From Lepiota brunneoincarnata (Eukaryota; Basidiomycota; Agaricomycetes; Agaricales; Agaricaceae), in the NCBI GenBank assembly GCA_023014365.1, contig JAEBUN010000001.1, positions 496,001-560,000 of the forward strand: a DNA stretch of 64,000 bases, given 5' to 3'. Below, piece after piece: positions 8,134 through 64,000 of this stretch. The notes under the pieces were generated by a model. It had not been told where the DNA came from. It did not search any database and saw only the letters and a program-made list of their open reading frames with translations. A program made the translations under genes and the position numbers. The first letter of the stretch is position 1. Each line of letters starts with the position of its first letter.

Positions 8134-8146
8134 GGGGCCCATAACC
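8134..8146 (-). other. Copia primer-binding site, half-tRNA(iMet) type
   Basis: Directly after the 5' LTR, in element orientation, the sequence is GGTTATGGGCCCC. This is complementary to the anticodon arm of eukaryotic initiator tRNA (GGGCCCAUAACC), not to a tRNA 3' CCA end. Drosophila copia is known to prime from a 5' half of tRNA(iMet) cut in the anticodon loop, and this site fits that type. The tRNA itself is not in the window, so the match rests on the known conserved sequence. Confidence 0.7.
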
Positions 8147-8468
8147 TGTCGATGAGACATTTGCGCAGAGTATAGATAATCAAGCAGAGATTTATTACTG
8201 GAGTCCGAGGGACGAAACCTAAGTGTAAGCTACACAGCAAATAAGAGTGCTAGAACATACCTGGAGTCCGAGGGACGAAACCTAGACTCCAGGCGAGCAT
8301 ACGCGACGTATTTATAATACACGATTAGGAGAAAGTGAAAACATATAGAAAACAGTGAAACTTATTACTCCTTAACTGAGGAGCCACCGTACTCAGGTGC
8401 TCCTCGCATACTCCTTGTATGACGAGCGAAACGTAACGGACAAGGTGTCCCGACGTCAATCCTCGACA
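8147..8468 (-). repeat. 5' LTR of the copia element
   Basis: 322 bp, TG...CA. It differs from the partner LTR at 2802-3123 by two bases near 8165 and two bases near 8450. A TATTATAAATAC box in element orientation could serve as promoter. The same internal 24-bp direct repeat is present. It is followed on the right by the ATATT duplication. Confidence 0.93.
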
Positions 8469-28499: not shown

Positions 28500-31400
28500 C
28501 TAGTCAAAGTTCCATTCTTTTGGTTCCCACTCTTTTGCATCTATTTTTCCATCTAGAATTCCAGTTTTATAACCATCCTTTGTGATTTGAAGAGCTGTAA
28601 AAGTGGAACCTTCAAGTGAATTGTGGGGAAGGGTATCAGTGTGCTTGCCACTAGAAAAGCCCTTTCAGAGGATACTGAGGATCCTGCAATAGCTAAATAA
28701 TCTCTGGCTATAGCCCCTAGAGTTGGGTACTTGTTATGGTTGATCTAAATGCAAAATCAAAAAATAATCAAGGGTGATATATAAACACAACTTACACCCC
28801 ACCAGGCTATAACATCCTCTACTGGTTCAATGCCAGCACCCAAGTACTCATCTAATTTGTGAAATATATCTTGAGTAAATGAAGAGGCCTGAGATAATTG
28901 TTGGCACATTGCCTGAGCCCATGCAGAAGTTCCCACTTCAACAGAAATATCTGATAAGGCCTGAGACTGAGTTTTGGGTTCTTTGTTATATGTCTTAAAC
29001 TAAGCTTGGGTTAATAAAAACCTTAAAATAACTTGAGCACTATTATATACCACCTCTCGAAATCGAGTTTTTGCCATTTCAGAGTCAGAAAAAGTCCACT
29101 TTTCTTCAAAATACTCCATTTTGCAGCTTGGATCCAGCACTAATAAATTATTAGCACCAAGAAACAGCAAACAAATAAAATCATACCAAGTGGAATAAAA
29201 TAAGCATCTGTGTCAACAAGGGTTGTATGCCATTTGTGAGCTTATCTATTCCTGCCTGAATACCATCCTTGACTGGTGCATATTGTGAGTGAAGTTTAAA
29301 CTGCTTCCATTTTTCAATCACATCCTCAAGCTCAGGAAGAGTATGAGTAATAGATGAACGGGTAGCAGATGAAAATGTTGATTGGACACTAGCAGGAACC
29401 TAGTGGAAATTAATAGGCTGTTATGTGAGTAGTGTAGACAATACTCACAGCTAGAACATCTTTCATAAGTTTAAGAAGCTTCCACTCCTCCTCAACCAAA
29501 TGATAGTCAAGATAGGTCTTGTCTTTCAATTTAGGAACAACTCCAGAGTCATCTGCATTTTTAATGAACTTCTGAACTCCCTATTTAAAAATTAGTCCAG
29601 TATTCAAAACTAATCTGTGAAAGAACATACTTTCTTTAGCAGAAGAAACCATTCAAGAAGGTGATATATTGAACTCCAACAAACATGAACCCATTTGATA
29701 AGCTCAAGCTCAGGTACTGACTCCTCAATACAGCAAACTGCAAAGTACTTCTTTGCCTGAGGTGATAAGCGGACCTACAAAAATATACACAACTGTCAAT
29801 TAATACTCAATATTTTGGAGAAAAGTGAAATACCTGAGTGATAAATGCTAATACTTTTCCAAGAACATCTCCTGCATCAAATGGAATAGCTTAATCAATA
29901 TCTTCATCATCTTGGATATTACCAAGCTTATCCCAATCTACCTCATCCTCATTAGTTGAAGCTGATTTGGTTGTGAACTGAGTAGAACAGATGGCTTCAA
30001 TAAAAGCCTTAGCACCAAGGTGGATGGTATGTTCAATACATCTTGGATTTTTGAAAAGTGAGAACAAAATATGGACTAAGTTGAAGATTACTCACCTAGC
30101 ATGATGCTCACAAGCTATCCAATTGTGTGAAGGTGTATTGAGTGCATGTTGAAGTACCTTGAGAGCCTTATCATTGGATGAAGCATTATCTGTGGTAATC
30201 CAACCAATCAACAAAAAGAATTAGTTGTTCATATTACAAATCATGAAAGAAGTATTTAAAAAACCTTAGATTGGATTTTATACTGATAAAAAACACTGAG
30301 AACAACTGCAGCTAAATTTTCACCACCATGGTTTCCTTCAATCTCTGGAAAGCCAATCACATGTGACTTGAGCTTCCAGATATGTGGTTGATCAGGAGGG
30401 TTGGTGATATACTGGACAGTAATAGCAAGGAATGGTTTCATATCTTCAGAAGTCCAGCCATCAAATGTAGAGGAGATTTTTCCTGGTTGTTTACAAAATA
30501 AAATCAGCATCAGAAGCATAAAAAGAGTTAAGACATACCTGAAGAATTTTAGATAGTCGATGAACCACAATTTTAGTCTTATACTTCACCTCCTCAGATA
30601 TCTTTGAACAATGAGGGATGTCACTATCCTTTGTGGATGGCTGCTGGTAGATAAGAAGTCTGTAAGGGGACAGCTGGGTAGCCAGATCCCAATCCTAGTG
30701 AGCTTAGCATACCAATCACCCAGTATGTCTAACCAGTGTAATGGGTTGCCACTCATCTATTCTTACTCCTCTTCTGATGTAGGTTGCCCAATGGGTATTC
30801 TTAGATAGAACTTGATCTTGTGCTGTAAATAGTTGTTCTCTGATGTTCCAGGACATTCTGTAGTATTTATAGCACTGTCTGTAGTATATAGGCACAGGTT
30901 GGGGGGTAAAGCCCCTCACTTAATTATCAACTTGGTTCCGGGCCCTTTATTCCCCTAACAAAGTCCATGAAATGATGGCTGATCTACAGCTGTAAATGGC
31001 TAAAAGAATAGTTCATTACATACAATTCATCAAGAACAGAGATGGAATATTACCTGATCATCCTCAACAAGCCAATGAGTGAGATACTCAATGAGTCCTT
31101 CCTTTGTTCACTTTGCAGTTGGTACTACAAAAGTATCAAGTGTCTTCTGAGTGGCATTCCCATCATTATCAGTTGGTTTAAAGGCTCCAGACTTCTTAGC
31201 TTCAGCAATTGTGACAGAATGAGGCTCAAAACCATTCTCTTGAGCTCGTATCATGTAAAGATCACCATGTGTTTTCCAGTTTCTGATACACTAAATGATA
31301 AATAAATATATTTCAGAGACAATACTACATACTGCACAATATGTTTGTGACAAGTTGTCACACTTCCAGTCATTCAGAAACTCTCATCTAGCTCCTGCCC

Positions 31401-31827
31401 TTTGTGTTTTGCAAGGTGACTGCAAAAACAGCACATGTTAGACATAACACAATATAGGAATAGATTTTCTTACCAGCAGATCTCACACCACCATCCCTTT
31501 GTCTGAACACTATCTTTCAGACATTCTTCCATCTGCCAACATGCATGAATGTCCTTGGTTTGTTCACTCTGACCATGATGAACTTGTTTGTGCTAAAATA
31601 AGGAATATAAGTGTATAGATAACATATAAAAGAATATGACTTACAGCAGGTATAGAGTCAGGATTGTCATCATCCTCTGTAAGATCCTCTGTCTTCTCAT
31701 CCTCTTGGTCATTATCACCTTCTTCATCCTCTTCCCCATCATTCATGACAACAACTGGCTTCTTCTGAGAACAGCCAGACTCAGCAGTAGACTCTCCCCA
31801 CTTCCGTTTTATTGGCCCTACGGGCAT
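28500..31827 (-). pseudogene. hAT transposase with BED finger, multi-exon, broken
   Basis: Reading from the 5' side: an acidic exon from 31827 (KRKWGESTAESG, many Asp/Glu), a BED-type zinc finger split by an intron near 31390-31500 (WWCEICC, then HLAKHKG), DIPHCSKISEEV upstream of GKISSTFDGWTSEDMKPF with the first catalytic Asp, WITTDNASSNDKAL with a second Asp, CIEHTIHLGAK, and the C-terminal dimerisation block YPTLGAIARDYLAI...SSERAF ending WNFD and a stop at 28500-28502. These are the standard hAT domains in order. In-frame stops are present (for example in the DEDID-stop segment near 29893) and a solo LTR splits the coding region, so it is inactive. Confidence 0.8.
30661..30960 (-). repeat. 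Solo LTR, family X, inside the hAT element
   Basis: 300 bp, TGTTAGGGG...CCCCTTACA in minus orientation, flanked by a perfect AAGTC duplication (30656-30660 and 30961-30965). It is nearly identical in inverted orientation to the LTR at 31978-32278 and more distantly related to the one at 53388-53726. It inserted into hAT coding sequence just upstream of the DIPHCSK segment. Confidence 0.93.
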
Positions 31828-31894
31828 ATAGCAAAATCAGAGAGCCATGGAATTGGAGGGCCATGTACATAATATAGTAAAATCACAGCAGGGG

Positions 31895-31977
31895 AGGGAG
31901 CCACATAGCGAAACAAGGGAGAGGGAGCCATGTAGCAAAAATGAGGGGAAGGGAGCCACATAGTGAAACAAGGGGGA
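31895..31977. repeat. 28-bp minisatellite at the hAT right edge
   Basis: Three units starting at about 31895, 31923 and 31951 with consensus GGGAGCCACATAGYGAAACA plus a G-rich end; degenerate units extend left to about 31840. It may be a hAT subterminal repeat or simply the break point where LTR X was joined. Confidence 0.6.
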
Positions 31978-32278
31978 TGTTAGGGGAATAAAGGGCTTGG
32001 AACCAAGTTGATAATCAAGTGAGGGGCTTCACCCCCCAACCTGTGCCTATATACTACAGACAGTGCTATAAATACTACAGAATGTCCTGGAACATCAGAG
32101 AACAACTATTTACAGCACAAGATCAAGTTCTATCTAAGAATACCCTATCAGGCAACCTACATCAGAAGAGGAGTAAGAATAGATGAATGGCAACCCATTA
32201 CACTGGTTAGATACACTGGGTGATCAGTATGCTAAGCTCACTAGGATTGGGATCTGGCTACCCAGCTGTCCCCTTACA
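31978..32278 (+). repeat. Family X LTR joined to an ORF3 fragment
   Basis: 301 bp, TGTTAGGGG...CCCCTTACA. Its flanks (GGGGA on the left, CATCT on the right) do not match, so unlike the other two X copies it is not a simple solo insertion. It is an inverted copy of 30661-30960, about 1 kb away, and is followed directly by sequence of another retrotransposon (ORF3 and a Y-type LTR). This is a chimeric or recombined junction. Confidence 0.85.
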
Positions 32279-32732
32279 CATCTCACCCCCACCAGAAACA
32301 CCACCCACACCATCACCAATAACAACTGTCACAGTTCGGAACTCCCCCAATCCCATTCACACACAAACCAACCCCCAAACCACTGACAGATCAGTCTGTA
32401 TTCAATGCAGACACACTGGACATTGGGCTATAGACTACCCACAATTTGCCTGTCTTGGATGCAAACAATACGCTCCAGGATACTACTCATATGACTGCAT
32501 CAAATACCGATGTCCCCATTGTGCAGTTTTCCAACCTTGCCATAAATGGACCAAATGTCCAGCTCAGAACACCCAACACACCCCCTACTCCAGAAAATCA
32601 ACAACCAGTCCCTCAATTACCCCCACAACTCACAATCAATACATTGACCTCACTAATGACAACTATTACAAGGAATGTTACAACAAGATCGCCAAATCAA
32701 ACATCACAGGAGAACCATGCAGTGCCTTCTGA
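32279..32732 (+). pseudogene. ORF3 fragment of a Y-type Gypsy element
   Basis: The 3' part of the extra ORF that follows integrase in the Y and G Gypsy elements. In one open frame it shows a CCHC-like knuckle with its last Cys changed to Tyr (CIQCRHTGHWAIDY), then PQFACLGCKQYAPGYYSYDC, CPHCAVFQPCHKWTKC, a QYIDLTND segment and the C-terminus KSNITGEPCSAF. The frame is open into the LTR X on its left, but that junction is chimeric. After the stop come 282 bp and a Y-type LTR at 33015. The N-terminal part of ORF3 and all of gag-pol are missing. Confidence 0.75.
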
Positions 32733-33014
32733 AGAAAACCAAACCACCCCACCAGAAGAAAGGATAGAAAGTCCCCACTTTAGATGACTTCTCTATGACT
32801 TCTTTTACCCAGGAAAACCCCCATCCCCAGAAACCACCACTGCACTTGACCTCCACAGAATCCCTACACCAACCTTTTCTCCCATTATTCCCCCTTGACC
32901 AAACTCCACTCAACACCCCCAAATTGAGTACTATGAACCCTACTACCTTGCTGAGTACCCAGAAGAAGGAAACTAACAAGTTGTGATGGAAAACAACTCT
33001 CAAAATGGACCTAA

Positions 33015-38647: not shown

Positions 38648-40447
38648 ATGGCAGTGCAGTATTGCCCAAAATGTCAGCAACCTTTGCAATCATGCAGGTC
38701 CAAACCATTTATTTACATATTCAATGTAATTAACACTGATTTACAGATTATACCTTACGAAGTGTACTCGACCACCCTCACCTATCATGGCTCCATTCTT
38801 CTACAACAGTGTCGACATCCTGCAGGCTCTGCATCACATTTCCATGCAAGAGATAGTATCTCTTTGTGATGGTCATCATTTTCATACTTGTGAACTTTGT
38901 TCTTGGCCCATTTTTCTAGATGCTATTGCATCACTGCCTATCCGTCAGCAAGATATTTTAATTCAATTTGCATCTGTTCACAATCATTCGACCCTTGCTT
39001 TTACAAACTCCAATGTTTCCCAACAAAATAATGTGACAATGACATCTACAAACAGATCAGCATCAGCCAATATCATGCATACATCATTCCTGAAACCTGT
39101 TTCGACCAATGTACACCATACACTTGTGTCAAATTTCATCAAACACACCAATTCCAAATCATTGCAATTGTTAACTTGTAGTGTTTGTGCTTGCAAACTG
39201 TGGGCATCATCATTTCAATCATGTAACATCATTTCTATCCCAAACCAACATCTCTTGCAACCCGCTGACATCATCCCTGAATACAACTTGATTGACAGTC
39301 TTCTTCTTTTTAATGAAGTAATCAGCTCTAATGGTGATTTGTCTGTCTGTAATGAATGTTGGAAGCGGTTGTCTAAGAATGTCCTTCCCAAACTCACTCT
39401 TACCAATAACATGTGGATTGGCTCTGTTCCAGAAGAGCTTCAATTGCTAACACTAGCCAAAAAGATTTTAATTGGCCATTATTTTCCTGCTGCCTACATT
39501 ATCAAAATGTTTCCGAAAAACCCTACCACCCCTTCCTGGAACCCTGATTCTTTCAACTGCAGTATGTGTGGCAATGTATCCACTTATCCTTTGGACACAA
39601 TGGATATATTGTCATTTGTCAAAGAAAACATTTTTCCACATCCACCTATCATCCTTGGTGCATGTGTATCAATTATGATGGTCACTCCACAAGGTTGGCC
39701 TGAACATTGTTTTCCCCATTTAGTTCAAGTCTGTCACCAATGAGTCTTTCATGCACTTTTGTGGCTTAAAAACCACAATCCTGTTTACAATGATATTACG
39801 ATCTCCAATGAGCGACTGTCATTGCTACCTGACAATGGCATCCCTCCCAAAATCATTCATACTACTCAGTACTCAAACAATGTTTCAACTGTGGCTCATG
39901 AACATGATAATTATGTACCATATATTGATAGCAAGTATCATTCCTTGCTATATTGTATCTTTCTAATTAATATATTAGCAGTTAATGATCCTGATTCACC
40001 TTCCAACATAGAAGAACAGGCTTTGATTGGTAAATTATATATGCCTTGTTGTTTGCAGTTAAATACATTGATTTATTTTATAGACAAGTATGGCATTCCA
40101 ATTCAGGCTTTGGGTGTTGTCAACATGCCAGGCAATTCTGTTCCAGATTCAGAAGTCCTAATCCATGCCATACAAAATTTAGCCAATTCTCAAACTGTCA
40201 CTTATTCCGATGGTATTCCACCTCATTTCGAAGTCCATCAAGGTTCTACTTTTATCAATGAGTATGGACGATGTGATTACCCTGGACAAACAACAAATAC
40301 AAGTAGCGATGGTCCACATTTCATTCTTGGATGTTTTCCATGTCCCTTCCCTTGTGGCCATGGTGTAAGGGCGACCTGGCTGACATGTTGCATTGGCTGA
40401 GCAGGAAGAAACCTTAGTGTCATTTCCAGACTTCTACCAAGTACATA

Positions 40448-42050
40448 CAGTAAGGGACAAAACCCTTCCAATGATTTTTATACTTCAACAAATATGTTAA
40501 TAACTGCCCACCTGCTAAGGATGAAACCTTCATATTTTAATTGGGAATACCTATATGACTCATATATCATCCTGCCAAATATCATTATGTCATATGCCAT
40601 TTTGGGAAGTCAGTGAATTAAACAATCATTTAAGGTCATTGGAAGGGTTTTGTCCACCTCTAAGAAATTACCAATAATTACACTTTTAGTACTTTGTATA
40701 CTCTCCCCTGGCATCCAAGACAGCCTGAACCCTATTAGGCATACTCTCTATCAGATTCTGACACACTTCTGCTGGAATCTGATCCCATTCCTTTTGTGTC
40801 CTATCCCATAATTCTTCCATCCCCTGAGGTGGAGTGTCATACTCCCCCAACTTGATTTTAAGGTGAGTCCACAAATGTTCAATTGGATTAAGGTCTGGAG
40901 ATTGTGGAGGCCACACCATAACCTCCATTTCAGCTGCTTTGAGCCATTTTTGAGCCTTGATGCACCTATGTTTGGGATCATTATCTTGTTGAAAGACAAT
41001 ATCCTCCACCTCTTTGTCATACCACTCTAGGCTCCCCTTGAGTTCATCCTCCAAAATGGTGACAAATAGATCACCATCCATCTTACCATTAATCTTGGCT
41101 GCCAACCCTGGACCCTCCCACAGCATACAGCCCCATACCATGATAGAACCTCCTCCAAACTTTGTGGTTTCCTGCACCAGCCTATCACTAAGCCTCTCCC
41201 CTGCTCTTTTCCAGACCCAAACCCTGCCATCTGACCCTAAGTGATTGATTTTGGTCTCATCTGACCAAAACACCCTCTTCCAGTCTTCCAGGGTCCAGTC
41301 TGCATGTGCCTCTGCCCACTCCAAGCTTTTCCTCTTGTGTATAACAGAGAGTTTAGGCCTTTTCTGCTTGACTACAGCCTTCATTCCAGCTTTTTTGAGT
41401 GCTCTGTGAACTTTTTTGGAGGATAGAGGTTGGCCAATGACAGTCCAAAGGGTTCTGGTGATTTGGGAGGCATTTTCAGCCTTGCAGGATGTGATAAGAT
41501 GAGTGGCATATTTGATATTGCCAACAGAAAGCTTGGTTGATCAGCCACCAAGTGACTTTGAAAGTATTGAATGATGTTTGGAGTGAAGATGAGATATAGT
41601 GCTGAGGCCAAGACAAGTGGTAAATGCAATATGGGTAGCAGAGTGGCCTTTGTCCAAAAGGGAAAGAATATGGTTGCATTGAGTCATAGAGAGAGATTGC
41701 ATGTTAGCAAAATGAGGTTGGGGGGGTGGTGTGAGCTAGGGGAGTGAGCAGCTATATTTATACATTATTCCAACCAGTCACATGACATTTATTTGCACTT
41801 ATTTGGTTCTAATAAACAAAATCATGTGATTAGAGTAGAGATGGACAAAACCCTTCCAATGACCTTAAATGATTGTTTAATTCACCGACTTCCAAAAATG
41901 GCATATGACATAATGATATTTGGCAGGATGATACATGAGCCATATAGGTATTCCCAATTAAAATATGAAGGTTTCACCCTGAGTGGGTGGGCAGTTATTA
42001 ACATATTTGTTGAAGTATAAAAATCATTGGAAGGGTTTTGTCCCTTACTG
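40448..42050 (-). mobile_element. Tc1/mariner element with 208-bp inverted repeats
   Basis: 1,603 bp with TA duplications at 40446-40447 and 42051-42052. Terminal inverted repeats of 208 bp (40448-40655 and 41843-42050) begin CAGTAAGGGACAAAACCC and are nearly identical. Each repeat carries the motif GGACAAAACCCTTCCAATGA twice, once at its outer end and once at its inner end in inverted orientation. One transposase ORF is inside. It is inserted in the Helitron relic. Confidence 0.95.
40686..41702 (-). pseudogene. Tc1-like DD34E transposase with one stop
   Basis: 338 codons from ATG at 41702 to the stop at 40686, the usual length for Tc1 transposases. The N-terminal part has a helix-turn-helix (HILSLLDKGHSATHIAF) and a second one (NASQITRTLW...SSKKVHRALKKAG). 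The catalytic domain has WSDETKI, QQDNDPKH and SPDLNPIEHLW, giving a D-34-E spacing. A single in-frame TGA lies in the linker after SKSLGG, where the family has a basic GRP-like hook, so CGA>TGA is likely. From MKAVVKQKRPKLS onward the frame is clean. Otherwise intact, so inactivation was recent. Confidence 0.92.
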
Positions 42051-42270
42051 TACCTGAGCAGGGAGAAACCTTAGAGAATCGAGTAAGGTTTCTCCGAGCT
42101 CACCTACACTACTTATACTACCTGCCATAAGGTCCAAGTTGAGTAATCCATTCTACATAAATGGCCATAAGGTGTCAGGGATGCCTAAAGTAAGTATAGT
42201 CAGGAATGGGCTTGGGATAGGGTCATGCATGCCAGTGAGGGTTCACATCTGCATTGGAGGGGTGTAGGAG

Positions 42271-43943: not shown

Positions 43944-44243
43944 TTACCCCATTTCTAAGGTTATATTCCACTATAACTGTTTACGTCTTTTCCTTCTGTT
44001 GTGTTTGAGTGGAGTTTAGAAGTCTCCTACTGGTTCTCCGCACATGTTAGACATGGCGATGTTATCATATCCATTGTCAAAGTCAATCTTCAGGGTATTC
44101 GAGTCCTGAGTATTGGTAATGGAGCAATGGGGTGGTTTGGGGTTGAGCTGCCATAGGTCTGTTATAAGGCATATGTCTTGTTCCTTTTGAAGGGCATTTG
44201 GTTCATTTGTGGCAAGGTTGGAATACTCCACAGTGTGGGCATC

Positions 44244-44953
44244 TGTTATGATCCATGCTCCTTCTGTATCCAAGGATAACTGGAGACGGCCTTCAATCAC
44301 TCTACAAGGTGTCCGAGATGGTTGGCCTTGTAGAGCTTAGTGGATCGTGCTCAATGAGATAATGAGGGAACACGCCAAGTTAAGGCAGAGAGGGTTAACA
44401 ACCACTGTTAACAAGATTAAAGCTTGAGGCTTTAATCTCTACTTGTACAGGCCTTATATACCTATGAGATATTATATACTCATTATAGGTTATTGGGCTG
44501 TTCTACTTGTCCTGCACAGTCTTGACCATGATGCACATCCTAGCTGATGGCATCCTACTGTTATTTATATCTTACAATGAGTCAGTGTCCTCGTTCTCCA
44601 TTCTGCTGCTGTGCAATGTTCCATTGCTTTCCTCTGACTCATAATTCTCTTCTCCTGATTCTATCTCCATGGATTCTCTTCCATTCTTGCTCTCCATTCT
44701 CTCAGTGCTTCCATCCGTATTGGAGGTTGGATTGGTTGATCCATGGCTATCTTCTTCATCCTCAGGGTATTCCAGAATATCCTCCAGAGTTATCTCTATT
44801 CCTGCTTCTCTTGCCAAGTCCTGCATGGCGTTGTAATATTCCCCTTCTTCGTCTTCATATTCCTGTGCTTGCAACTGGTCTGTGGTCTCCTGTACCCATC
44901 TTGTAAAGTCGAATAATTGTTCTTGTTCCTCTCGATCTGGACTGTTCATAACA
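44244..44953 (-). repeat. 3' LTR of Gypsy element G
   Basis: 710 bp. It contains, in minus orientation, the acidic ORF at its start, then a TATATAAGG box, and the hairpin AGATTAAAGCCTCAAGCTTT with its completing ATCT. Preceded by the polypurine tract. Confidence 0.95.
44572..44949 (-). CDS. LTR-embedded acidic ORF, 3' LTR copy
   Basis: 125 codons, beginning MNSPDREEQEQLFDFTRW four bases inside the LTR. About a third of residues are Asp or Glu, with a segment LEDILEYPEDEEDSHGST and a Ser-rich acidic tail ending TDSL. It begins about 50 bp after the ORF3 stop, so in a full-length RNA it would be the last ORF, in the U3 part of the 3' LTR. It is open in all three LTR copies in the window. No homolog recognised. 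It could be a chance ORF kept open by low divergence, or a real accessory protein. Confidence 0.5.
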   Translation of the reverse strand: MNSPDREEQEQLFDFTRWVQETTDQLQAQEYEDEEGEYYNAMQDLAREAGIEITLEDILEYPEDEEDSHGSTNPTSNTDGSTERMESKNGRESMEIESGEENYESEESNGTLHSSRMENEDTDSL

Positions 44954-44995
44954 TTATCCCCTTCTTAAGGTCTGATGTCCTCATCAGACATATCC

Positions 44996-46210
44996 TCAGT
45001 ATAATCCAACAGGCTCTCCTGTGATGTTTGATTTGGCAACGGGGTCCCAGTCATAGTAGGGGTTGGGTTCTGGAGAGTCGCTTTGATAACTTGGTGGCCT
45101 GGGGATGGCGGGTCTTGGGTAAGGTCGATGACGAGGGGTTCTCTGGAGTGAGTGGTGACAGGTGTGTTGAAGGACCAATTCAGAAAGTTGGTGGCTTCTG
45201 CCAGTAGATGTGGTGGTGGTGTTGGTGGCCAGAATGATGATGGGGGCACCTTGAATTCGGGTGCAGAGGGGTCTGGCTGAGGCAGGGTGCTGTTTGGTGT
45301 TTGCAATAATGTGTCAAATATTGTTGTTTGTGGTTTCGCATGTGAGGGATCAAGCTCTGCTTGGTATTCCTTGTGGGTGGCAATACAAGCCAGGTACCAT
45401 ACTTGCAGGTTGATGTTGGTAAGGGTTTCTTTTGCAGTGCTTCTCATAATGGCCGGGGGCAGTCTTTCGACAATATCAACATTGGTAGCATGGGCATCCT
45501 GCCTTGATATGGCCAAATCGATGGCAGCAATTGCAGCAAGTTCTGGTGTTGGATAAGTGATTGGTGGTAGTCCTGGTGGGGGCGTCATTAGAAGCAGATA
45601 TAACTTGTATAGCACTTGGTGGTTGGTTATTTGTATCCACCATGGGAGGGTTGGAAGGTTGGGTGGCGGTTCCAATAGGTAGGACAGGGCAGTCCTGACT
45701 TCCACTTCCATTGCTTGGGCTTGGGATCAGACTCTCGAACGGGAATTCAGTGAGAGCAGTTGATAGCATGGCAGAAATGGTAGTGTGGTCCTGTTCCTCT
45801 GTTGCACTAGAAAGAATAGTGGTGCATAATTCTTGGAATTCTGTTGTTCAGTCATGGACAAGGTGCTTGTGATACAAAAGAGCAGTAAATGTCTTCCAGC
45901 AGGTGTTGACCAGGGGTACCATCGCTGGACTGCATTTAAGATGGGTTCCAGTAATATGAAAGGGAACTTCATGTAAAAGGATGGATTGTATTTCGGGTTG
46001 ATTGGAGGGAAGGAAGGTATGCTGGATGATATAAGGACTGTTGGTCCTGTCTGGTTGGTTGTCAATGGTATTGGCGGCAGGGCCAGGTTGGCTATTTCCT
46101 GTGACATGGTTCACCAGGGATATGATTCTTTCCTGGATGAGAAGGTGTCCATCGTTGTCTGGCTCTGGGAGGTCTGGAGTGGTTGCTTGAGTGTTGGGTG
46201 GTTGGGTCAT
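44996..46210 (-). pseudogene. ORF3 of element G: bipartite zinc-finger protein
   Basis: A reading frame of 405 codons from ATG at 46210, which overlaps the end of the chromodomain ORF in another frame, down to 44996. It begins MTQPPNTQATTPDLPEPDN. In the middle are a CCHC knuckle (CNCCHRFGHIKAGC) and at once CPCYQC-stop-YCRKTAPGHYEKHC, the same second Cys/His module as in element Y. It ends DWDPVAKSNITGEPVGLY, again shared with Y. Several in-frame stops occur (one right inside the second module, another near 45848). Part of the C-terminal half reads better in a neighbouring frame (45711-44965, containing LVIDLTQD), so frameshifts are likely. Function unknown. Confidence 0.65.
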
Positions 46211-49200
46211 TGGTGAGGCTGTCTAGTTTGTGGGCCCTTTTATATTCTTCAATGATTTCCTTGGTGTTCTCCAGGTTTGCTTCTGGTTCCCAGGAGTCCT
46301 CAGTGGGAAGGTATCCTTTCCATCTGACTAGGAATTGATGCTTGTTCCGGAATTTTCTGTGGCACAGTATTGACTTGACCTTGTATTCTTCTTCTCCATT
46401 GACAAGGTCAGGAGGCAGGGCTGTGTTGTATTCCCCATGTGTGTCATTCTCTTCTGCAGGCATTAGGAGGCTTGCATGAAACTTGTTGTGGATCTTCCAT
46501 TTGATGGGTAATTTTAGTTCATAGGTAGCAGGTCTGAGTTTTCTTGTTATGGTGAAGGAACCTTCTTGGCATTGGGCCAGTTTCTTTGAGGCGTACTGAA
46601 TTGGGAGGTTGCAGTTGTCTAGCCAAACCTTTTGTCCAATGTTTAGATTGATATCTGGCCGGTTATATCTTGCAGCCATTTTTAGTCTGGCTTGCTCATG
46701 CACAGCTTGAGCTTCTTGGCATATCTTGGCAAGGTATTTAAACTTTTCTCCTATTGCTGGAATGTTCATTGGCTCCTCAGAGGTCAGAAATCCTTTGGGG
46801 GTTGATCCATAGAGGAGTTCAAATGGGGTATGTTGGTGTTTGGCATGTGTTTTTGAGTTGTGAACATATTCTAGGAGTGGGAGTGCCTTTACCCATTTGT
46901 TTCGGGTTTGATGAGCAGTAGATGCCAAGGTATAGTTCTATTTCCTGATTGAATCACTCTGTTTGTCCATTTGTCTGCGGGTGATAGGTGGTAGAGAGTG
47001 CTTGTTCAATTCCAAGTTGTTTATAGAATTCTTTCATGGATTTGGCAGCGAATCTGGGATCGCGATCACTGAGAACCTTTTCAGGAAGGCCAAATCTAGA
47101 GAATAGCCGTTTGATAAGAATTTCGGTGATCTTGTCCATGTTGGCAGTTTTTGCAGTAGGTTCTAGAATTATCCCCTTCGTAAGCTGGTTGACCACGACC
47201 AGTATAGAATCATGGGGTCCATCCAGGGGTAGGTCTGTGATAAGATCCATTGAGATATTTGAGAATGGGTGGGTAGAACAGGGTCCAGGGATAGGTTGAA
47301 GCAGTGGCTTCAGGGGGTGGTGATTGATCTTGTATTGTTGGCAAACACCACATCCTTGGATGTAGTTCTTGACAAATGATCACATCCCAGGCCAATAGGC
47401 ATACTTCTGGAGTTTTCTGGTGGTTTCTGCGATTCCAGGGTGTCCTGCAGTTGGTGAGTCATGTACTCTTTGCAGTAAGTGGCATCTGAGGTGTAGATCT
47501 TGAGGTATAAATAGTTTTCCATGAACACATGGGTGTCCTGAGTTGTCTTCTTGGGCGATGCTGGTTTGTTTCTTCTTCTTCCACAGCTCCTTTATTTCAT
47601 GCTTGGTAGTTTTGTCGATAATACAGATGTGTTGTGGTCATTCTGGGGTGAAGAATTTATTGGGTAGGGCAACAATCTGTTTGTTGTCCTTTGTCTTGGG
47701 TTCATGGTCAGGTTGTCTTGAGAGAGTGTCCACTGGTCCATTTTTCTTTCCAGGGATGTGCTGGATTTCAATATCAAATCGTTGCATGTAGGCAATCCAT
47801 TGAGCTTGTCTTCTACTGAGATCCTTGGGTTTTCTCCAGCAGCAAAGATTATTGTGATCTGACCATACAATGGTTTTGTGAGATGATCCTTCTATGTGGT
47901 GGCACCATTCCTTGAGTGCTTGGATTATGGTGAAGAGTTCTTGTTCAGAGCAATGATAGTTGCATTTGGCTGGTGAGAATCCTTTTGAGAAATATGCGAC
48001 CAGGTGTTTAACTCCATTATTATCATGTTGAAGGAGGACTGCTCCTGATGCAAATAGGGATGTGTCACATTCAATTTTGAAGGGCTTGTCTCTGTCTGGT
48101 ACCATTAGTACCAGTTTGCTTTGAAACTTTCTCTTGAGGGTATTGAAAGCATTTTGGCATTCTTCTGTCCATTCGAATTTCTTGGTTTTGGACATCAAGA
48201 CATTGAGGGGTTTGGCCCATGTGGCGTATTGATGTATAAACTTCCAGTAGAAGTTGCAAAATCCTATGAATTTGTGTACATTGTGCAGGGTAGTCAGTGT
48301 TGGCCATTCAGCGATGCCTTTGAGCTTTGCTGGGTCCATTGAGACTGAGTCCGGAGTGATGATAACTGATATTCGAGTCGTTGGCATTCAAATTCGCATT
48401 TCTCAGTCTTGAGGTATAGATCGTTGTCTTTAAGTATCTTGAGTACTTCTCTTGTAAGATGTTGGAGTTCTTGTTTTGTTTTTGCATGAATGAGGATGTC
48501 GACCATGTAAATGATTACTCCTCCATTATTGATGAGTTTTCAGAATAGTGAATCCATCATGGTTTGGAAGGTTGCTGGGGAGTTGCACATTCCGAAAAAC
48601 ATGACCATAGGTTCGAATAGTCCTCAAAATATGGGGTGTTCTGAAGGCTCCTTTCCATTCATCTCCTTTGCATATATGGATGTTATTATATCCTGCTCAT
48701 ACATCAAGCTTGGTAAAGTATCTTGGTCCTCGGAGTTTGTTGAGAATGTGTGAGATGAGGGGAAGGTTGTATGCGTTCTTGACGGTATGTTCATTGAGGT
48801 ATCTATAGTCTTGACAGGGGCATAGCTTTCTGTCTTTCTTTCCTACAAAGAAGAAAGGTGAGGCCATTGGTGATTCAGATGGTTGAATGTATCCTTTCTG
48901 AAGGTTTTCTTCAAGAAATGTGTCAAGTTCCTTTTCTTCATTAAGGGAGAGTCGGTAGGATTTCATGGCAATTGGTTTGAATGATTCTTTGAGTTCGATT
49001 TTGTGATCCCATGGTTGTTGTGGGGGGAATCGTTTGGCTTGTTTCTTGCTGAATACTGGGAGGTATTCGTGGAATTCTGCAGGTACGACTTTTCTTGGGT
49101 TGTCATTCTTCTTTTCTCCATGTTGTATGGCAAGGAATTGTGATGCTGAGGCTTTGAAGTTAATTTCTTCGAAGCTTGTAGGCTCGAGGGTGGAGATGTG

Positions 49201-49692
49201 GTTGAGTTGGTCATTGTAAATCCAATCAGGTTCCATAGATTGGATGAGTTCTTGGAAAATAGTGTTGTCCCAACATTCGTTTCTCCAGCGTAATTGTTTG
49301 GCATCCCAGTCAATGTCTGGGTTGTGTTCTGCAAGCCAAGGGAATCCAAGGATGAGTCTTGGGCTTCCAAGGGAGACTACTTTTGGTTTGATCTCCATAT
49401 CCTTTCCATTAACCATTAGGTTGAGGATTGTATAATGGGTGGCTGTCCCATTTTTGTTAATGGATCCATTGGCATTTCGTACTTTGATGGGTTGATCAAG
49501 GGGTATTGTCTTGAATGAGTGTTGTCTGACCATTCCAGGGTCGATGAAATTTCCTGCTGCTCCTGAATCGGATAGGGCAAGTAGTTCCACACTTTTGGGT
49601 CCTTCCTTAGTGATTTTGTGTTTTTGGATTTGGCAGGGTAGATGTATTATGCGTGCTGATGATTCCTGTAGTTTTACTGACATTAATATCAT
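46092..49692 (-). pseudogene. Pol of Gypsy element G, with chromodomain
   Basis: In order: aspartic protease (LALSDSGAAGNFID, DSG motif), RT beginning YRLSLNEEKELDTFLEENLQ, SPFFFVGKKDRKLCPCQDYR and YFTKLDV-stop-AGYNNI, a damaged palm with YMVD in place of YMDD, RNase H (IECDTSLFASGAVL, VWSDHNNL), integrase with MDLITDLPLDG, SDRDPRFAA and HPQTNGQTE giving D-D-E, then a chromodomain (HQFLVRWKGYLPTEDSWEPE near 46250-46340). Breaks: the TGA in the RT palm (CGA>TGA by family comparison), the YMDD Asp to Val change, frameshifts near 48400-48650 and a stop after integrase near 46930. Dead copy; a relative of Tf1/sushi-type chromoviruses. Confidence 0.88.
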
Positions 49693-49752
49693 TTTGTGGA
49701 TAAGGGAAGGAAGGGGGTCTTTGTGGAGGGCTAGACATGGTGGCTAGTCTCC

Positions 49753-51622
49753 TTAGGCAAAATCCTTAACCAGAGGGGCATCTGGGTGGTTGGATTCATT
49801 TGCAAAGTGTTTATAAATGTCCTTGACTTCTTCGTTGGTTGCGTCTTCTAGTATGTTGTATAGGGAGTTCTTCTTCCTATAACTTGCTTGTCTTCTTCTG
49901 GATATCGCATTTGACTGGTTTCTGGCATCCAAATTGCAGGGTAGTTCGGATTGGTGATATATGGTCTTCTTGGTGGGGTATTTGTGGGCGAAGTGTCCAG
50001 TCTTGCAGCAGTTGAAGCATCTCTTCTCCTTGAGATCCCTTCTTTGGGCATCTGTGAGGATTGCATTAAGGGCTTCACAGGTGTGTTCCTGTACCAACTG
50101 GTGGAGTCTGTCTTCTTTGGTCTCCTCATTTTCATCAGCTTCCTTGGTGAGTAGATCTGGCTCTTCCTCAAAGTTGAGGTTGTAGACTGCTTTGGCAAGT
50201 TAGTCAATATCCATTGCATTGGGGTCTGTTGCTTGATAGGGGAGTGGGACACTGGCACGTAAAAGTATTTATTTTCCCTTTAAATGAGTGAGGGTGCGAA
50301 GTTGTTGGAAACGAGGGAGCTCCTTGAGTTTGCATATAGTTGCATTGAGTTTGTAATATTTGATATGCTGTTCGAGCTTGTTTGAACCAGTCATTGAGTT
50401 TGTTTCCTGGATTGAGGCTCATTGTTTTGATTGTGATGGGGCAATCCAGCCCATTCTTGAAATAGTTGACCTGCTGCCACTCCATCTCCAAGGTCGGCCT
50501 GATAGGCAAGTATCTGGAACTGGGATATGTAATCATCAATATATTGTCCATTCTGTTTGAGGTGGCGGATTCTGTCCATTGCACCTGCGGGGACATTGTT
50601 TGGGGCAAATGATGTGTTGAGTTCTTCCAGGAATTTCTTCCATGTTGGAAGGTTCTGGCTTCCATCAAGTTCCTTGTTTGATTCCAAGAATGCTCCTCTC
50701 CATGTTGCGGCAGGGCCGGTGGACATGTAAGAAAGGGCGAATTGTATCTTGGTCTTATCATCAGAAAAGGCACCAGGCTTTGCATCGATGTATAATTGTA
50801 CTGCATCCTTCCAGAGGTGGTAGTAGTTGGTCTCTCCATTAAAGGTTGGGGGTGTATTGATCTTTGTGGAGGAGGCCATATTGTTAATGTCAGAGGTTGT
50901 GGATTCCTCGTCAGAAGTGTGAATAGACCCGGTAGTGGGGCTAACTTTGGATGATTCAGATTGTACAGGGGAACTGGATCAAGGTGGTGAGTGTACCAGT
51001 GATCCAAGTGGTGATATGAGGGGTGAAGATGTTCTTGGGGGTTACTGTTGCAAAGTGTTGTTGCGAGTTCTTGTACTTGTTGAGGGTTGAGGACTGGAGG
51101 ATGGGGCAGATATTCTATGAATTGGCTCCCCGAGCTTTGAGCAGGTAGAGGTAGCAGTTCTTTCAGGTGGTGGTTGTTTGGGTAGGGATTGAAGAACTGA
51201 TGCTGGGGGTGCTGGGTATCCTGGGTCTTCTGTTTGACATTGAACTCTCTTGGTAGGTTGTGTAGGGTACAGTGCAGAACCAGAGGGTGAATGAGTGAGG
51301 GGTATAGGTTTTGTTTTCTTTTTATGGTCCGTGGTGGAGGGGGTGTGAAGTCGGATTTGGAGTCAGTTGTTGACCAGTCAGAACTGTTAGATTCTTCGTA
51401 GTCAGTGGCGAGGGGGTCGTTTTGGTTTGTAGACAGGGTGTAGAGGGAAGAAGTCGAAGGTGAAAGTGGGGGTAAAGGTGAATAAACAACGCTTGTGGGT
51501 GCATTATCCCAATCAATGCTTGACGGTGTGGATGACCTATATACAACACTTACAGGTGCATTATCCCAATCAACACTTAAAGGTGTGGATGACCTATCAA
51601 TGCTTTTGGTGCATCTGACCAA
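49753..51622 (-). pseudogene. Gag of Gypsy element G
   Basis: The N-terminal part (51622 to about 50880) is Pro/Ser/Thr-rich and contains a near-exact duplication of a unit around WDNAPxSVVY (about 51480-51605). The core starts MASSTKINTPPTFNGETNYY at 50879 and has LSYMSTGPAATWRGAFL and WKKFLEELNTSFAP, as in Gypsy capsid. The C-terminus has a CCHC-type knuckle with its last Cys changed (CFNCCKTGHFAHKY). Frameshifts separate the three parts, so it is not functional. Confidence 0.75.
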
Positions 51623-51798
51623 GGGTGCAGAGGGTATGGTGGCCTGCTCTATGGGGGTGTATCACCAGACAGCGACAAGGTGTGTTGTCAGATATGGTTG
51701 GCACTCGGATAGTGATAAAGCATATCATCTACCAGTGTGGAAGGGTAGCGACAAGGTGTACTGATACCACAGGGTGTACAATGGAGGTTGTCCAAAGG

Positions 51799-51810
51799 AA
51801 GCTTTAATCT
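51799..51810 (-). other. Self-priming primer-binding site of element G
   Basis: In element orientation, two bases after the 5' LTR, the sequence AGATTAAAGCTT occurs. It is the exact reverse complement of AAGCTTTAATCT at 51983-51994 in the 5' LTR, which lies 31-36 bp downstream of the TATA box and so at the expected RNA start. Tf1/sushi-type elements are known to prime reverse transcription with the first about 11 nt of their own RNA. No match to a tRNA 3' end was evident. Confidence 0.65.
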
Positions 51811-51982
51811 AATGTTATGATCTGTGCTCCTTCTGTATCCGAGAATAACTGGAGATGGCCTTCAATCACTCTACAAGGTGTCCGAGACAGTTGGCCTTGT
51901 AGAGCTTAGTGGATCATGCTCAATGAGATAATGAGGGAACATGCCAAGTTAAGGTAGAGAGGGTTAATGACCACTGTTAACA

Positions 51983-52029
51983 AGATTAAAGCTTGAGGCT
52001 TTAATCTCTACTTGTACAGGCCTTATATA
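51983..52029 (-). promoter_or_regulatory. TATA box and predicted transcript start in the G 5' LTR
   Basis: In minus orientation TATATAAGG (52029-52021) is followed, about 30 bp on, by AAGCTTTAATCT (51994-51983). The spacing is normal for RNA polymerase II. The start site is inferred both from this spacing and from the match to the primer-binding site. The same arrangement is kept in the 3' LTR and in the solo LTR at 6578-7275. Confidence 0.55.
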
Positions 52030-52140
52030 CCTATGAGATATTATATACCCACTATAGGCTATTGGGCTGTTCTACTTGTCCTGCACAGTCTTGACCATGA
52101 TGCACATCCTAGCTGATGGTATCCTACTGTTATTTATATC

Positions 52141-52518
52141 TTACAATGAGTCAGTGTCCTCGTTCTCCATTCTGCTGCTGTGCGATATTCCATCACTTTC
52201 CTCTGACTCATAATTCTCTTCTCCCGATTCTATCTCCATGGATTCTCTTCCATTCTTGCTCTCCATTCTCTCAGTGCTTCCATCCGTATTGGAGGTTGGA
52301 TTGGTTGATCCATGGCTATCTTCTTCATCCTCAGGGTATTCCAGAATATCCTCCAGAGTTATCTCCATTCCTGCTTCTCTTGCCAAGTCCTGCATGGCGT
52401 TGTAATATTCCCCTTCTTCATCTTCGTATTCCTGTGCTTGCAACTGGTCTGTGGTTTCCTGTACCCATCTTGTAAAGTCGAATAATTGCTCCTGTTCCTC
52501 TTGGTCCAGACTGTTCAT
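52141..52518 (-). CDS. LTR-embedded acidic ORF, 5' LTR copy
   Basis: 125 codons, beginning MNSLDQEEQEQLFDFTRW, otherwise nearly the same as the 44572-44949 copy. In the 5' LTR it lies upstream of the TATA box, so it would not be on the element's own RNA from this end; only an outside promoter could read it. Confidence 0.45.
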   Translation of the reverse strand: MNSLDQEEQEQLFDFTRWVQETTDQLQAQEYEDEEGEYYNAMQDLAREAGMEITLEDILEYPEDEEDSHGSTNPTSNTDGSTERMESKNGRESMEIESGEENYESEESDGISHSSRMENEDTDSL

Positions 52519-53387
52519 AACAGCATCTATACTTGATGCAATCGTATGAATAATGGCCTGGGGCGTATTGTTTGCAACCAAGGCAGGCAAATTGGGGGCA
52601 GTCCATGGCCCAGTGTCTGGTTTGTTTGCATTGAATGCATCAAGATCTGTTGTTGGGTTTAGGGTTTGGAATTTGTTGAATGGGAGTGGGGTAATTCCAT
52701 ATCAGGGTTGGTTTGGTGGTATTTTTGTGGAAGGGGTTGTTATTTCCAACAGGATTCTTTCTTCCTGACATGGGAGTTGGAGTGTTTTTGTTGGTGGGGG
52801 GTATCACATTGGTTTGTTTCTTTCTTGGCATTTGGGACATGAGTCCTTGGTGAGTGAGGAGGAATGCCTCGTAGTTTTCAGTCCACTTTCGTTGGGCATG
52901 GAAGGCATCATGGAGGAGTTTTGTTTGTTTGACGTGATGGATATAGTTCGACCATACTTCTCAGTCGTAATCGCTGATGGGGGCCTTGTTGACTTTGTTG
53001 GTGAGGAATTGGGTGGAGGTGATGGTGCGTAGGTCTTCTACACTGGTTGTGATTGGTTCCATATTCTTTATTCCAGCTGTGTGGAAGTTGATAGGTAAGG
53101 TGGCTACTGGTTCTGGTTTGGGTGTAGCTTTGGGGTCAGGAGTTTCATCTCTGATGTTGATGAACATGTTGGAAGGTGTGAATGGGCATGGTTTTGGGAT
53201 TGGAGTTGGGGAGTTTCTTTCGACGTTGGGATCATCGATGATGACAACAGAGGAGGTGGTGGAGGAAGAGGAGAAGGGGGGAGTAGATTGGGGATGGATG
53301 AGGTCAAGGTTGTTCATGGACATTGCTGAGTACGTTTGGTGGTAGAGCAAAGTTGCTTCTGGTAGGTTTTGGGTAGTTCCTGGTCAT

Positions 53388-53731: not shown

Positions 53732-56700
53732 TGCTGTTAAGTTGATGTTCTTCTTTATACTCTTCCAAATATTCATCGGCATTGTTGTGGAGATCTTCTT
53801 TGGATATCCATTGGTTCTCCATGTGGGAGTATCCTTTCCAATGTACATAGTATTGGAGTTTCCTGCGATATCGGTGATGATTGAGAATAGCTTCTATTTC
53901 ATATTCTTCTTCTTCATTGATGATGTCTGGTGGTGGTGGTGTCGGATGAGGTCCATATGCTTCTGTTTCATTATATGGGGTTAGGAGGTTTTGGTGGAAC
54001 ACCGGATGTATCTTCCATTTGATCAGAAGCTTTAGTTTGTATGTGAGTGGCAATAGGACTTCTGAGATAAGGAAAGGTCCTAGTCTTTTTGGGGATATTT
54101 TGTTGGAGATGAAGGGGAGTTTGAGGTTCTTGGCTTCTAGCTATACTTTCTGATGTGTTTCAAGGGGTTTGACAGTTCTTCTGGTTCCTTGTTTCATAAT
54201 ATCAGCAGAGAGTTGATGTGCCACATGTGCTTCTTTTCTGGTGTCATTGAGGAGTCTGATGTGTTCATCTACTGATGGAAAGTTCGAAGTTTCCATTACT
54301 GTGGGTATCAGTGGAGGGTTGTATCCCATGATGAGTTCAAATGGGGATTTCTGCCTTGAGGCATGTATTTTGGAGTTGTGTGCAAACTTGGCAATAGGGA
54401 GGGTTTCTGACCAGTCAAGGGGGTTCCTGGTGTAGTATATGGCGAGATAGGTCTCAATTTCTTGGTTGTATCGTTTGGTGGAACCATCTGTCTGGGGATG
54501 GTATGTGGTTGAGAATGCTTGTTGGATGTTTAGATGTTTAGCTAGTTCTCAGAGAGAGTTGGTGGCAAATCTGGGGTCTCAATCTGATATGATTTTGTCA
54601 GGTAATCTGAACCTAGTGAAGACTTTTTCTATTAATAGTCATCCGATGTCGTTGGCGTTTGATCGATCTGAGGTTGGGATGAAAATTACCCCCTTTGTAA
54701 GGCTGTGGTCCACCATGGACAATATCACATTATGACTGGTGCTAGGTGGTAGACCGGTGATAAGATCCCATGAGATCTGAGCAAATGGGCATTTAGAGGA
54801 TGATGGTGGGATCAGTTGAGTTGGTGCGCAATCTGGTCTGCATATGATTTTGTGTTGTTGACATTCTGGACAGCCTTTGATGTAGTTCTTTATGAACGTC
54901 GACATTCCTGGCCAATATACTTCTTTCTTGGCAAGGTGGTATGTTTCCTGTTCTCCAGGGTGACCACATGTAGGGTGGTCGTGGTATCTTGCAATGACAT
55001 TGCATCTGAGTTGGAGGTCTTCTGGAATGATGACACATTCTTGGAATGTGAGGAGTGGACCATTTGGGGTTGGGACTGTTCCAAAGTCTTTATCAGCGGC
55101 ATTAGGGTGGGTTTCCTTCAGGAGTTTGAACACTTTGGTGGTTCTAGCATCATATTTGGGTGATTCCGTGATTCTTTCTTGGAGTTCCATATTGACAGTG
55201 GCAGTAAAGAGGTGTTCTGGGAGTACTGTGATCAAGTTTTGATCTTCTGTGTTGGCAGTGGCAACAAAGAGGTTGTTTGGAAGCATGGTGATGTCTTCGT
55301 TATCATTATCCTCATCAGGGATGTGGTCTGGATGTCTTGATAAGGTGTCTGGTGCAGGGATCTTTGATCCTGGGATGTATTCTAGTTTGAAGTTGTAGTC
55401 GGCAAGGGTCTGGACCCATTGTGCTTGTCGGTGGTTGATTTTCTGGGGTTTGTGCCAATATGTAAGGTTTTGGTGGTCCATTCTGATATGGACAGTATGG
55501 GGGCTGCCAAGGAGGTAGTGGTGCCATTCTTTGAGGGCTCAGATAATTGCAAGGAGTTCCCTGTCATAGATGTTGTAGTTGCATTCCACTGGTCCAAATG
55601 TCTTTGGATAGAATGATACAGGTTTCCATATTCCATTGATGTCATGTTGGTACAGGACAGCTCCTGATGCAAATTTGGAAGCATCGGCTTCTATTTTGAA
55701 GGGTTTTGTGGAGTTGGGCATGAGGAGTACCGGTTCCTTTAAGAATTTGTTCTTGAGTGTTTCAAACACTTTTTGTTGTTCCTCTTTCCATTCAAATTTA
55801 TTTGATTTGGATAGGAGTTGGTTAAGGGGTTTGGTGTGGTGGGAGTAGCTGCAGATGAACTTCTGGTAGAAGTTACAGAATCTGATGAATTTCCAAATGT
55901 GTCAGACTGTTTTTGGCACTGGCCAGTCTTCTATTCCCTTGAGTTTTCCAGGATCCATTTTGATCTTGTCTGGTGTGATGATCATGCTGAGATATTCAAG
56001 TCATTGTTTGTTGAACTCACATTTCTCCGTTTTGAGGTAGAGGTCATTTTCCTGCAGGATCTGCAGTACTTTTTCTGTAAGTTGGTCGGTTTCTTCCTGA
56101 GTTTTACCATAGATTAGGATATCATCCATATATATGATGATTCCTCCTTTCTCCATTATTTCGGAGAATAGTGTGTCCATCATGTGTTGGAACATTGCGG
56201 GACTGTTGCAAAGTCCAAAAAACATAACAGTCAGTTCGAAAAGACCCATAGGAGTCTTGAACGCTGCTTTCCATTGGTTGCCATCTTTGATTCTGACGTT
56301 ATTGTATCCTAGGCGGACATTGAGCTTAGTGAAGTACTTAGCTCCTTTGAGTTTATCCATGATAGAGGAAATCATGGGGATTGGGTAGGCATTTTTGATG
56401 GTGTGATTGTTTAGATAACAATAGTCTTGGCAAGGTTGGAGGTCTCCTCCTTTCTTGGCAACAAAGAAGAATGGTGATGCCATAGGGGATTTTGAAGGAC
56501 GGATGTACCCTTTTTGGAGGTTTTCGTCTATAAATTCTTTTAATGCATTTTCTTTGGCAGGTGCTACTTGATAAGGTTTCATTGATTTTGCTTCAAATGT
56601 TGGTTTTAGTTTGATTTCGTGATCAAATGTTCTTGATGGTGGGAATCATTCAGATGCTTTCTTGTTGAATATTTTAGCCCATTGGGCAAATCTCCAAGGA

Positions 56701-63439: not shown

Positions 63440-64000
63440 CAATGCTAAGATCAGGATAGTGGTAAATTGTGATAGAAAGTAACCACACATGCATGCCAAC
63501 AGCATGGATTGTGGTTAGTTTCATACTGTGTTTAAAATATAAGTAGTATAAGATATTCAGACATTGCTAGATTGTGATGGAAATTGATTACACATGCATG
63601 CCAAAGGCATGGATTGTGGTCAGTTTCCTGCTGTGTTCAAGATAACAGTAACATAACATATTCAGATAATGCTAGATTGTGATGGAAATTGACTACACAT
63701 GCATGCTGAAGGTATGGATTGTGGTCAGTTTCCTGCTGTGTTCACAATATAAGTAACACAACATATTCAGACAATGCTAGATTGTGATAGAAATTGACCA
63801 CCCACTACTGTGTTCAAATATAAGTAACATATTATACCTAGACAATGCTAAGATTAGGATAATGCTAAATTGCAATAGAAATTGACCACACATACATGCT
63901 GGAGGCATGGATTGTGGTCAGTTTCATGCTGTGTTCAAGATATAAGTAATATAACATATTCAGACAATACTAAATTGTGATGGAAATTGACCACACATGC
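63440..64000. repeat. 105-bp tandem array running off the window
   Basis: Copies of the core ATTGTGATGGAAATTG occur at 63466, 63571, 63676, 63781, 63869 and 63974. The period is exactly 105 bp except one unit shortened to 88 bp. Each full unit carries CACACATGCATGC and GGCATGGATTGTGGT. It begins about 40 bp right of the pogo element and continues beyond the window. No ORF. Confidence 0.92.

Follow-up and report, generated by a model that had tools for sequence, protein, structure and literature searches.

Long terminal repeat (LTR) retrotransposons usually carry two open reading frames (ORFs), gag and pol (PMC3248453). We examined 64,000 nucleotides of the fungus Lepiota brunneoincarnata (GCA_023014365.1; C1:496001-560000, "the window"), in which Ty3/Gypsy elements with a chromodomain, the chromoviruses, have a third frame (ORF3) between pol and the 3′ LTR. 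An "add. ORF" of unknown function is noted for fungal or spikemoss Gypsy elements in the legend to Figure 3 of Novikova et al. (2010; PMC2864245), whose basidiomycete clades are MarY1, Laccy1/2, Tcn2, and Puccy1/2; the elements there are likewise Gypsy with a chromodomain and an additional ORF, but the portions of that text available to us give the ORF no zinc module, selection test, overlapping frame or named bearer element. Among the systems considered, the nearest worked-out parallel would seem to be CERV of the Caenorhabditis elegans element Cer1 (Gypsy/Ty3), which is required for export of the element's unspliced genomic RNA. By the description in the available parts of that source, CERV resembles the proteins treated here in being novel, encoded between pol and the 3′ LTR and without homologues outside nematodes, and differs in coming from a spliced mRNA and in that zinc knuckles are not mentioned for it (PMC10309623). 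The Retand elements of plants with TRP28 ORFs differ in that, as far as the accessible text goes, these ORFs are antisense to gag and pol and the elements are not chromoviruses (PMC11963269).

It is rather likely, in our judgement, that three related chromovirus families, designated G, Yf, and Yr, carry behind the integrase chromodomain an accessory ORF3 with tandem zinc knuckles as its functional core, and that G and Yf use this DNA a second time, in the +1 frame, for ORF4; the estimate covers jointly the claim that this +1 frame is coding and under selection in G and in the Yf tail. Complex retroviruses are marked by accessory genes, overlapping frames and C-termini encoded in the LTR, and such an arrangement is otherwise tied to vertebrate retroviruses: nef, sag of mouse mammary tumour virus and bel of foamy viruses stand behind pol and reach into the 3′ LTR, their 3′ part being the unique 3′ region (U3). 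ORF4 of G is like these, by arrangement alone, in lying behind pol with its 3′ part in U3. In the open-access literature we found no description of a zinc-knuckle ORF3 overlapped by an ORF4 that crosses into the LTR, and the overlapping +1 frame is the more unusual part of the two, and new here. Protein database searches gave as sole match P0001, which has 98% identity to G ORF3 and probably comes from the same or a sister species, and no independent relative, perhaps reflecting poor fungal coverage.

The ORF3 sequences of the window, and the chromodomains behind which they stand, are as follows.

44996..46210, minus strand: ORF3 of G, an old copy with TGA stops, the intact relatives having 404 aa (translation and assembly relatives)
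46236..46385, minus strand: chromodomain of G at the pol end, upstream of ORF3 (PF00385, expectation value (E) 4.4e-15)
52526..53323, minus strand: 5′ piece of Yr ORF3, with two knuckles at 52639-52526 (translation, assembly matches)
44016..44243, minus strand: 3′ piece of Yr ORF3, with the third knuckle and the end SNMCGEPVGDF (translation)
53751..53903, minus strand: chromodomain of Yr, upstream of ORF3 (PF00385, E 3.1e-12)
32265..32732, plus strand: 3′ part of Yf ORF3 in a 5′-truncated copy, with the zinc module at 32397-32558 (translation, assembly matches)

G, a minus-strand Gypsy element, is inserted inside ORF3 of the second element, Yr, whose second and third knuckles are parted by the insertion (CIQC...GHYSYDC ahead of the insert, CPHC...TKC behind it) and whose pol terminus occupies positions from 53724 upwards. 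The third element, Yf, is truncated at its 5′ side and retains the end of ORF3; the frame is open over 32211-32732, and nearly all listed copy matches start near 32265 or later. On the 5′ side of this truncated copy, 30644-32295 holds nested inverted repeats (89% and 98%). ORF3 of the window G copy is a single frame, reading CNCCHRFGHIKAGCPCYQC, a stop and then YCRKTAPGHYEKHC, with the C-terminus SNITGEPVGLY. The initial annotation had placed third ORFs with these motifs in G, in Yr and in the forward copy, and all three hold at the positions it gave; its treatment of the forward and reverse Y copies as one family does not, since these are two families, Yf and Yr, with 48-53% identity in ORF3 over up to 263 residues (Yf rows among the listed Yr-query matches). 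Both chromodomains score above the PF00385 cut-off, as do PF03732 and PF19259 for the Gag capsid in the G gag piece scanned; paired LTRs with a target duplication are present in G, and the Y LTRs are unpaired within the window.

ORF3 is a real gene behind the chromodomain in all three families. Relatives were sought in the same assembly (55.6 Mb, 95 contigs), where the window pieces as queries gave at least 150 matches for Yf, at least 136 for G and at least 145 for Yr (Yf copies included), with more than 100 relatives of the third ORF in all, and where a search for the chromodomain family gave at least 150; ORF3 lacks a premature stop in many of the matches listed. The common stop-to-stop frames are 403 codons in Yf, 412 in G and 360-369 in Yr, and from the first ATG the copies measured encode 374, 404, and 340 aa, respectively. 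Our script located 78 of 84 loci, and in 70 of the 78 a WKGY-type chromodomain motif stands upstream of ORF3 (Yf 23/28 and 12/12, G 25/28, Yr 10/10), mostly near -1295 (Yf), -1324 (G) or -1190 (Yr) nt from the ORF3 stop. An overlap of the ORF3 start with the pol stop, annotated initially for Y as a whole, is right for Yr, where the junction reads ATGTCCATGA in the window copy and the pol frame of copy L074 ends there; in Yf the pol stop is 2 bases (L062) or 3 bases (L069) ahead of the ORF3 start, and in G pol overlaps ORF3 by 116 nt (L052) or 56 nt (L060). In 22 G copies aligned to the intact L052, 79 of 89 premature stops in the ORF3 frame fall at CGA positions of L052; old G copies thus die mainly by CGA to TGA changes, as expected of CpG deamination.

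The zinc module of ORF3 consists of tandem knuckles.

45434..45535, minus strand: zinc module of G, a CX2CX4HX4C and a CX2CX6HX4C knuckle (translation, alignment)

The first knuckle has the CX2CX4HX4C spacing in all three families and the others CX2CX6HX4C, of which G has one and Yf and Yr two each; the two-part module initially described is therefore correct for G, and in Yf and Yr it has three parts. Random change at the zinc residues is not seen, all 12 Cys/His being kept in 16/16 Yf and 8/11 Yr copies examined. By profile search, zf-CCHC is the only Pfam family seen in ORF3, but the curated cut-off of PF00098 (20.8 bits) is not reached by Yr (16.7) or Yf (14.8) and G has no match, which counts against the assignment. 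The nearest solved chains in a sequence search of the PDB are weak matches, AIR2 for G (E only 0.009) and NCP10 for Yf (E only 0.004); ORF3 shares tandem CCHC knuckles with AIR2 and retroviral nucleocapsid and departs from both in its CX2CX6HX4C spacing and in APGHY. Between G and Yf, pairwise comparison of ORF3 finds the module (first two knuckles, E=2e-9), the C-terminal SNITGEP motif (E=1e-4) and little else in common. Retroviral nucleocapsid and Air2-type knuckles bind RNA, and from its own knuckles ORF3 would be a nucleic-acid-binding protein.

Given these knuckles, ORF3 could have been a captured or duplicated piece of Gag, that is, a second nucleocapsid. A CX2CX4HX4C knuckle is indeed present, and the Gag knuckle of the Yr element agrees with it at 8 of 17 residues; this 17-residue stretch (E 4e-4) is, however, the only significant match when ORF3 is compared with those Gag pieces of the two window elements that bear knuckles (G E 0.68), three intact ORF3 sequences, one per family, have no match to the Retrotrans_gag capsid at E 5, and the second and third knuckles differ from Gag in spacing and carry APGHY. 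ORF3 is not a copy of Gag, a possibility that the initial annotation had wished to see checked, and an origin by capture of a Gag piece appears quite improbable.

Selection on the ORF3 protein had been predicted, and relatives from the assembly show it to be purifying in Yf and Yr. For five Yf pairs the ratio of nonsynonymous to synonymous substitution rates (dN/dS) is 0.19-0.31 over the whole protein and 0.01-0.04 in the zinc module, and with three pairs pooled, differences in the module number 8/0/48 at ORF3 positions 1/2/3; the Cys/His module is the most constrained part of ORF3 in Yf. Three Yr pairs give dN 0.06-0.08 and dS 0.36-0.51 (dN/dS about 0.13-0.22) over ORF3 and dN 0.03-0.07 and dS 0.39-1.07 (about 0.04-0.18) in the module, and for the module compared across Yr and Yf dN is 0.04-0.08, dS being saturated. 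Since dN between G and Y ORF3 is already 0.85-0.96, no claim of selection is drawn from that comparison. The pairs were 5 of the 120 possible in Yf, 3 in Yr and 4 between families; the Yf tests used 16 of 42 loci, with ORF3 open for more than 300 codons before the motif (12 of the 16 chosen as stop-free matches), a choice that selects against ORF3 stops and not for codon-position bias, and upstream of about -1110 the Yf copies align too poorly for use.

The second frame was found through a 253-codon open frame at 45726-44965 in G. A frameshifted ORF3 was considered for G and rejected, as this 253-aa ORF proved to be the overlapping frame and the ORF3 frame of the window copy only has stops.

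44572..46152, minus strand: ORF4 of G, in the +1 frame of ORF3 and running into the 3′ LTR (next ATG, 46152, by eye)
44572..44953, minus strand: acidic C-terminus of ORF4, encoded in U3 (copy variants favour ORF4 third positions)
44244..44953, minus strand: 3′ LTR of G, which beyond the stop of ORF4 holds TATATAAGG at 44460-44452 (ends by eye)
51813..52522, minus strand: 5′ LTR of G, with the flanks GCATC at 44239-44243 and 52523-52527 (ends by eye)

In the window copy ORF4 is broken (open at 45726-44965 and 44964-44572), and 523 aa are open from the first ATG in L052 and L060. The intact copies L052, L058 and L060 have the +1 frame open for 391 codons before and 149 codons after the start of the C-terminal motif, and the frame crosses the polypurine tract to enter U3 of the 3′ LTR. 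The U3-encoded share is the last quarter of ORF4, and the last 135 residues include 46 Asp/Glu versus 7 Lys/Arg. The sequence TATATAAGG, for which a promoter role is presumed, is separated from the ORF4 stop by about 110 nt, and promoter and coding part therefore need not overlap. The ORF4 start is the next ATG after that of ORF3 in both L052 (G; 58 nt on) and L062 (Yf), and it is kept in 23/23 G and 15/16 Yf copies; in all 23 aligned G copies position -3 is C for the ORF3 ATG and A for the ORF4 ATG, the latter also being followed by G at +4.

Over 402 codons of G ORF3, the openness of the +1 frame was reached by 0/5000 synonymous shuffles (mean 7.8 stops, observed 1), and the converse, the openness of ORF3 given ORF4, by 1/5000 (L052) and 0/5000 (L060); in single-coding G pol, taken as control, the +1 frame is not open and is ordinary (2939/3000 shuffles reach the observed state). 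Variants were counted if common to at least two of 23 G copies, with CpG sites set aside; of the 30 loci, L051 and L057 were not located by the motif and L034, L036, L042, L048, and L050 align poorly. In the U3 part, where ORF3 is absent, variants at ORF4 positions 3/1/2 number 38/14/7 (p 1.5e-6), and in the first half of ORF3 20/10/5 (p 0.007); the zinc part has 6/5/5, the part after it 11/4/16 and the sequence behind the ORF4 stop 4/2/3. With CpG sites included the same five regions give 58/29/17 (U3), 53/26/31 (first half), 19/12/11 (zinc), 42/22/32 (after) and 6/4/6 (behind the stop). G alone of the three families has a coding frame that runs into U3 under selection, as is the way of LTR-overlapping accessory genes.

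In Yf, constraint on the +1 frame is found behind ORF3.

32733..32975, plus strand: tail of Yf ORF4 in the +1 frame, following the stop of ORF3 and disrupted in this copy (constraint in relatives)

This tail of some 80 codons is stop-free in 16 copies and ends, by eye, ahead of the LTR; its dN/dS is 0.08-0.24 (five pairs), and differences between L007 and L023 number 40/13/7 at +1-frame positions 3/1/2. Yr has no such tail in the copies inspected. Within Yf ORF3, dS is 0.21-0.25 in the N-terminal half versus 1.45-1.72 in the module (three deep pairs), and in the N-terminal half the +1 frame has dN 0.09-0.12 versus 0.11-0.12 for ORF3; a depressed dS together with a conserved +1 frame is as expected of double coding, and an RNA element could do the same. 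It might be argued that the openness of the +1 frame is due solely to the rarity of stops in shifted Thr/Pro/Ser/Ala codons. This fits the openness of Yf in part, at about 2-5% of shuffles, but not the G shuffles, the codon-position bias in U3 where ORF3 is missing, or the constraint on the Yf tail; it is disfavoured for G and the Yf tail, and we hold it to be very improbable in general.

Several observations weigh against a continuous, selected ORF4. In G, stops in the +2 frame are below those of shuffles in ORF3 (24/5000) and in the pol control (11/3000) alike, so the shuffles make an imperfect null; the variants in the first half of ORF3 favour ORF4 rather than ORF3, and the pattern there is less sharp once CpG sites are included; a comparison of younger with older copies, from which four of the five poorly aligning loci were excluded, has too few fixed differences for a decision. 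ORF4 of G and ORF4 of Yf have no similarity to each other. In Yf, openness of the +1 frame is weak when taken alone (121/5000 and 163/3000 shuffles, also 152/4000 and 199/4000), and over the zinc module the frame is unconstrained, with dN/dS 1.9-4.0 where defined. Several Yf copies have +1 stops, 11 of 16 such codons being CGA in L062; in six older copies one lies 25-26 codons ahead of the C-terminal motif, and the deep copies L007 and L023 have a common one about 25 codons before it with the tail still constrained. The free module frame and these upstream stops make a single continuous ORF4 doubtful in Yf.

Two other routes to the Yf tail were considered. The tail could be a C-terminal extension of ORF3, reached by a +1 frameshift at the stop of ORF3 or slightly upstream of it (ACAGGAGAACC, then TTC TGA). 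Variation in Yf changes from the ORF3 to the +1 pattern near -24, methionine is absent from the tail in all 16 copies, and L007 and L023 keep the tail despite their upstream stop; against this, no known shift site is present in Yf, the C-terminus of Yf ORF3 is similar to its counterpart in Yr, a family with no tail behind ORF3, and the depressed synonymous rate of the N-terminal half and the G data would be left unexplained. We regard a frameshift as possible though less than probable. A scan of L052 1100-1260 for slippery heptamers gave three matches, to a loose pattern. The second route, which we think unlikely, is splicing, with CACAG|GAG in the common motif as 3′ splice site and the zinc-module sequence as an intron in one form of the mRNA. 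The CAG at -23 to -21 is found in 15/16 Yf copies, and the G copy of the window has it as well; the Yr copy, from the tail-less family, reads ATGTGCGGAG at this site. CERV of Cer1, which has an exon in its own frame, comes from a spliced mRNA (PMC10309623); a scan for splice donors found no conserved canonical donor in Yf, however, and the best candidate in G, GTATGG at -404, would preserve the frame.

If ORF3 and ORF4 are taken as two products of one RNA, the downstream end of this RNA would serve for translation of ORF3; in Yr and Yf, where the pol stop and ORF3 start lie within a few bases of each other, ribosomes would terminate and reinitiate there. ORF4 may start by leaky scanning at the next ATG, which in G has the better context; a weaker ORF3 start followed by the ORF4 ATG is what leaky scanning would need. 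From the sequence, ORF3 appears to be an RNA-binding accessory protein of the element and ORF4 a second product of the same RNA; ORF3 might bind the element's own RNA, helping its export, translation or packaging, with the acidic ORF4 as a partner or regulator. For G ORF4 there is no Pfam match and no database relative, and a single-sequence structure prediction of its 253-aa piece gave no usable fold (mean predicted local distance difference test score, pLDDT, 37.8). YIDLTHDD, VIIIDDPN and IIIDLTQD (ORF3 of Yf and Yr, ORF4 of G) resemble SUMO-interaction motifs, which is speculation and possibly chance.

We lean slightly toward regarding G as a "complex" chromovirus, in which two almost fully overlapping and separately translated accessory genes would stand behind pol, a zinc-knuckle protein and an acidic regulator whose U3-encoded last quarter would be copied to both LTRs at each transposition. 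Selection on ORF3 and on the second frame suggests that accessory genes are retained in these elements in much the way known from complex retroviruses. If this is true, it would suggest that regulatory complexity needs no infectious, vertebrate lifestyle, no envelope gene having been seen in these high-copy chromovirus families. With more than 100 natural copies in one genome, the dual-coding gene pair offers test material, and repeat annotation that allows only a single frame for any stretch will overlook genes in pol-LTR regions.

Elsewhere in the window, 2802-8446 is a copia-like element by eye, with 300-nt repeats near its ends that are 99% identical, and within its span lies an apparently solo G LTR that starts near 6577 and has an open frame of 144 codons (6903-7337). 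A long ORF with a P-loop, GPAGVGKSA or GSAGVGKSA, occurs in four diverged copies (805-2586, 9702-11471, 14517-16289, and 17910-19625), NACHT-like by eye. At 40446-42052, 217-nt inverted repeats (96%) enclose a transposase-like ORF (40686-41540), Tc1/mariner-like by eye, and at the window end (63440-64000) a 158-nt repeat occurs in four copies at spacings of 105, 105, and 193.

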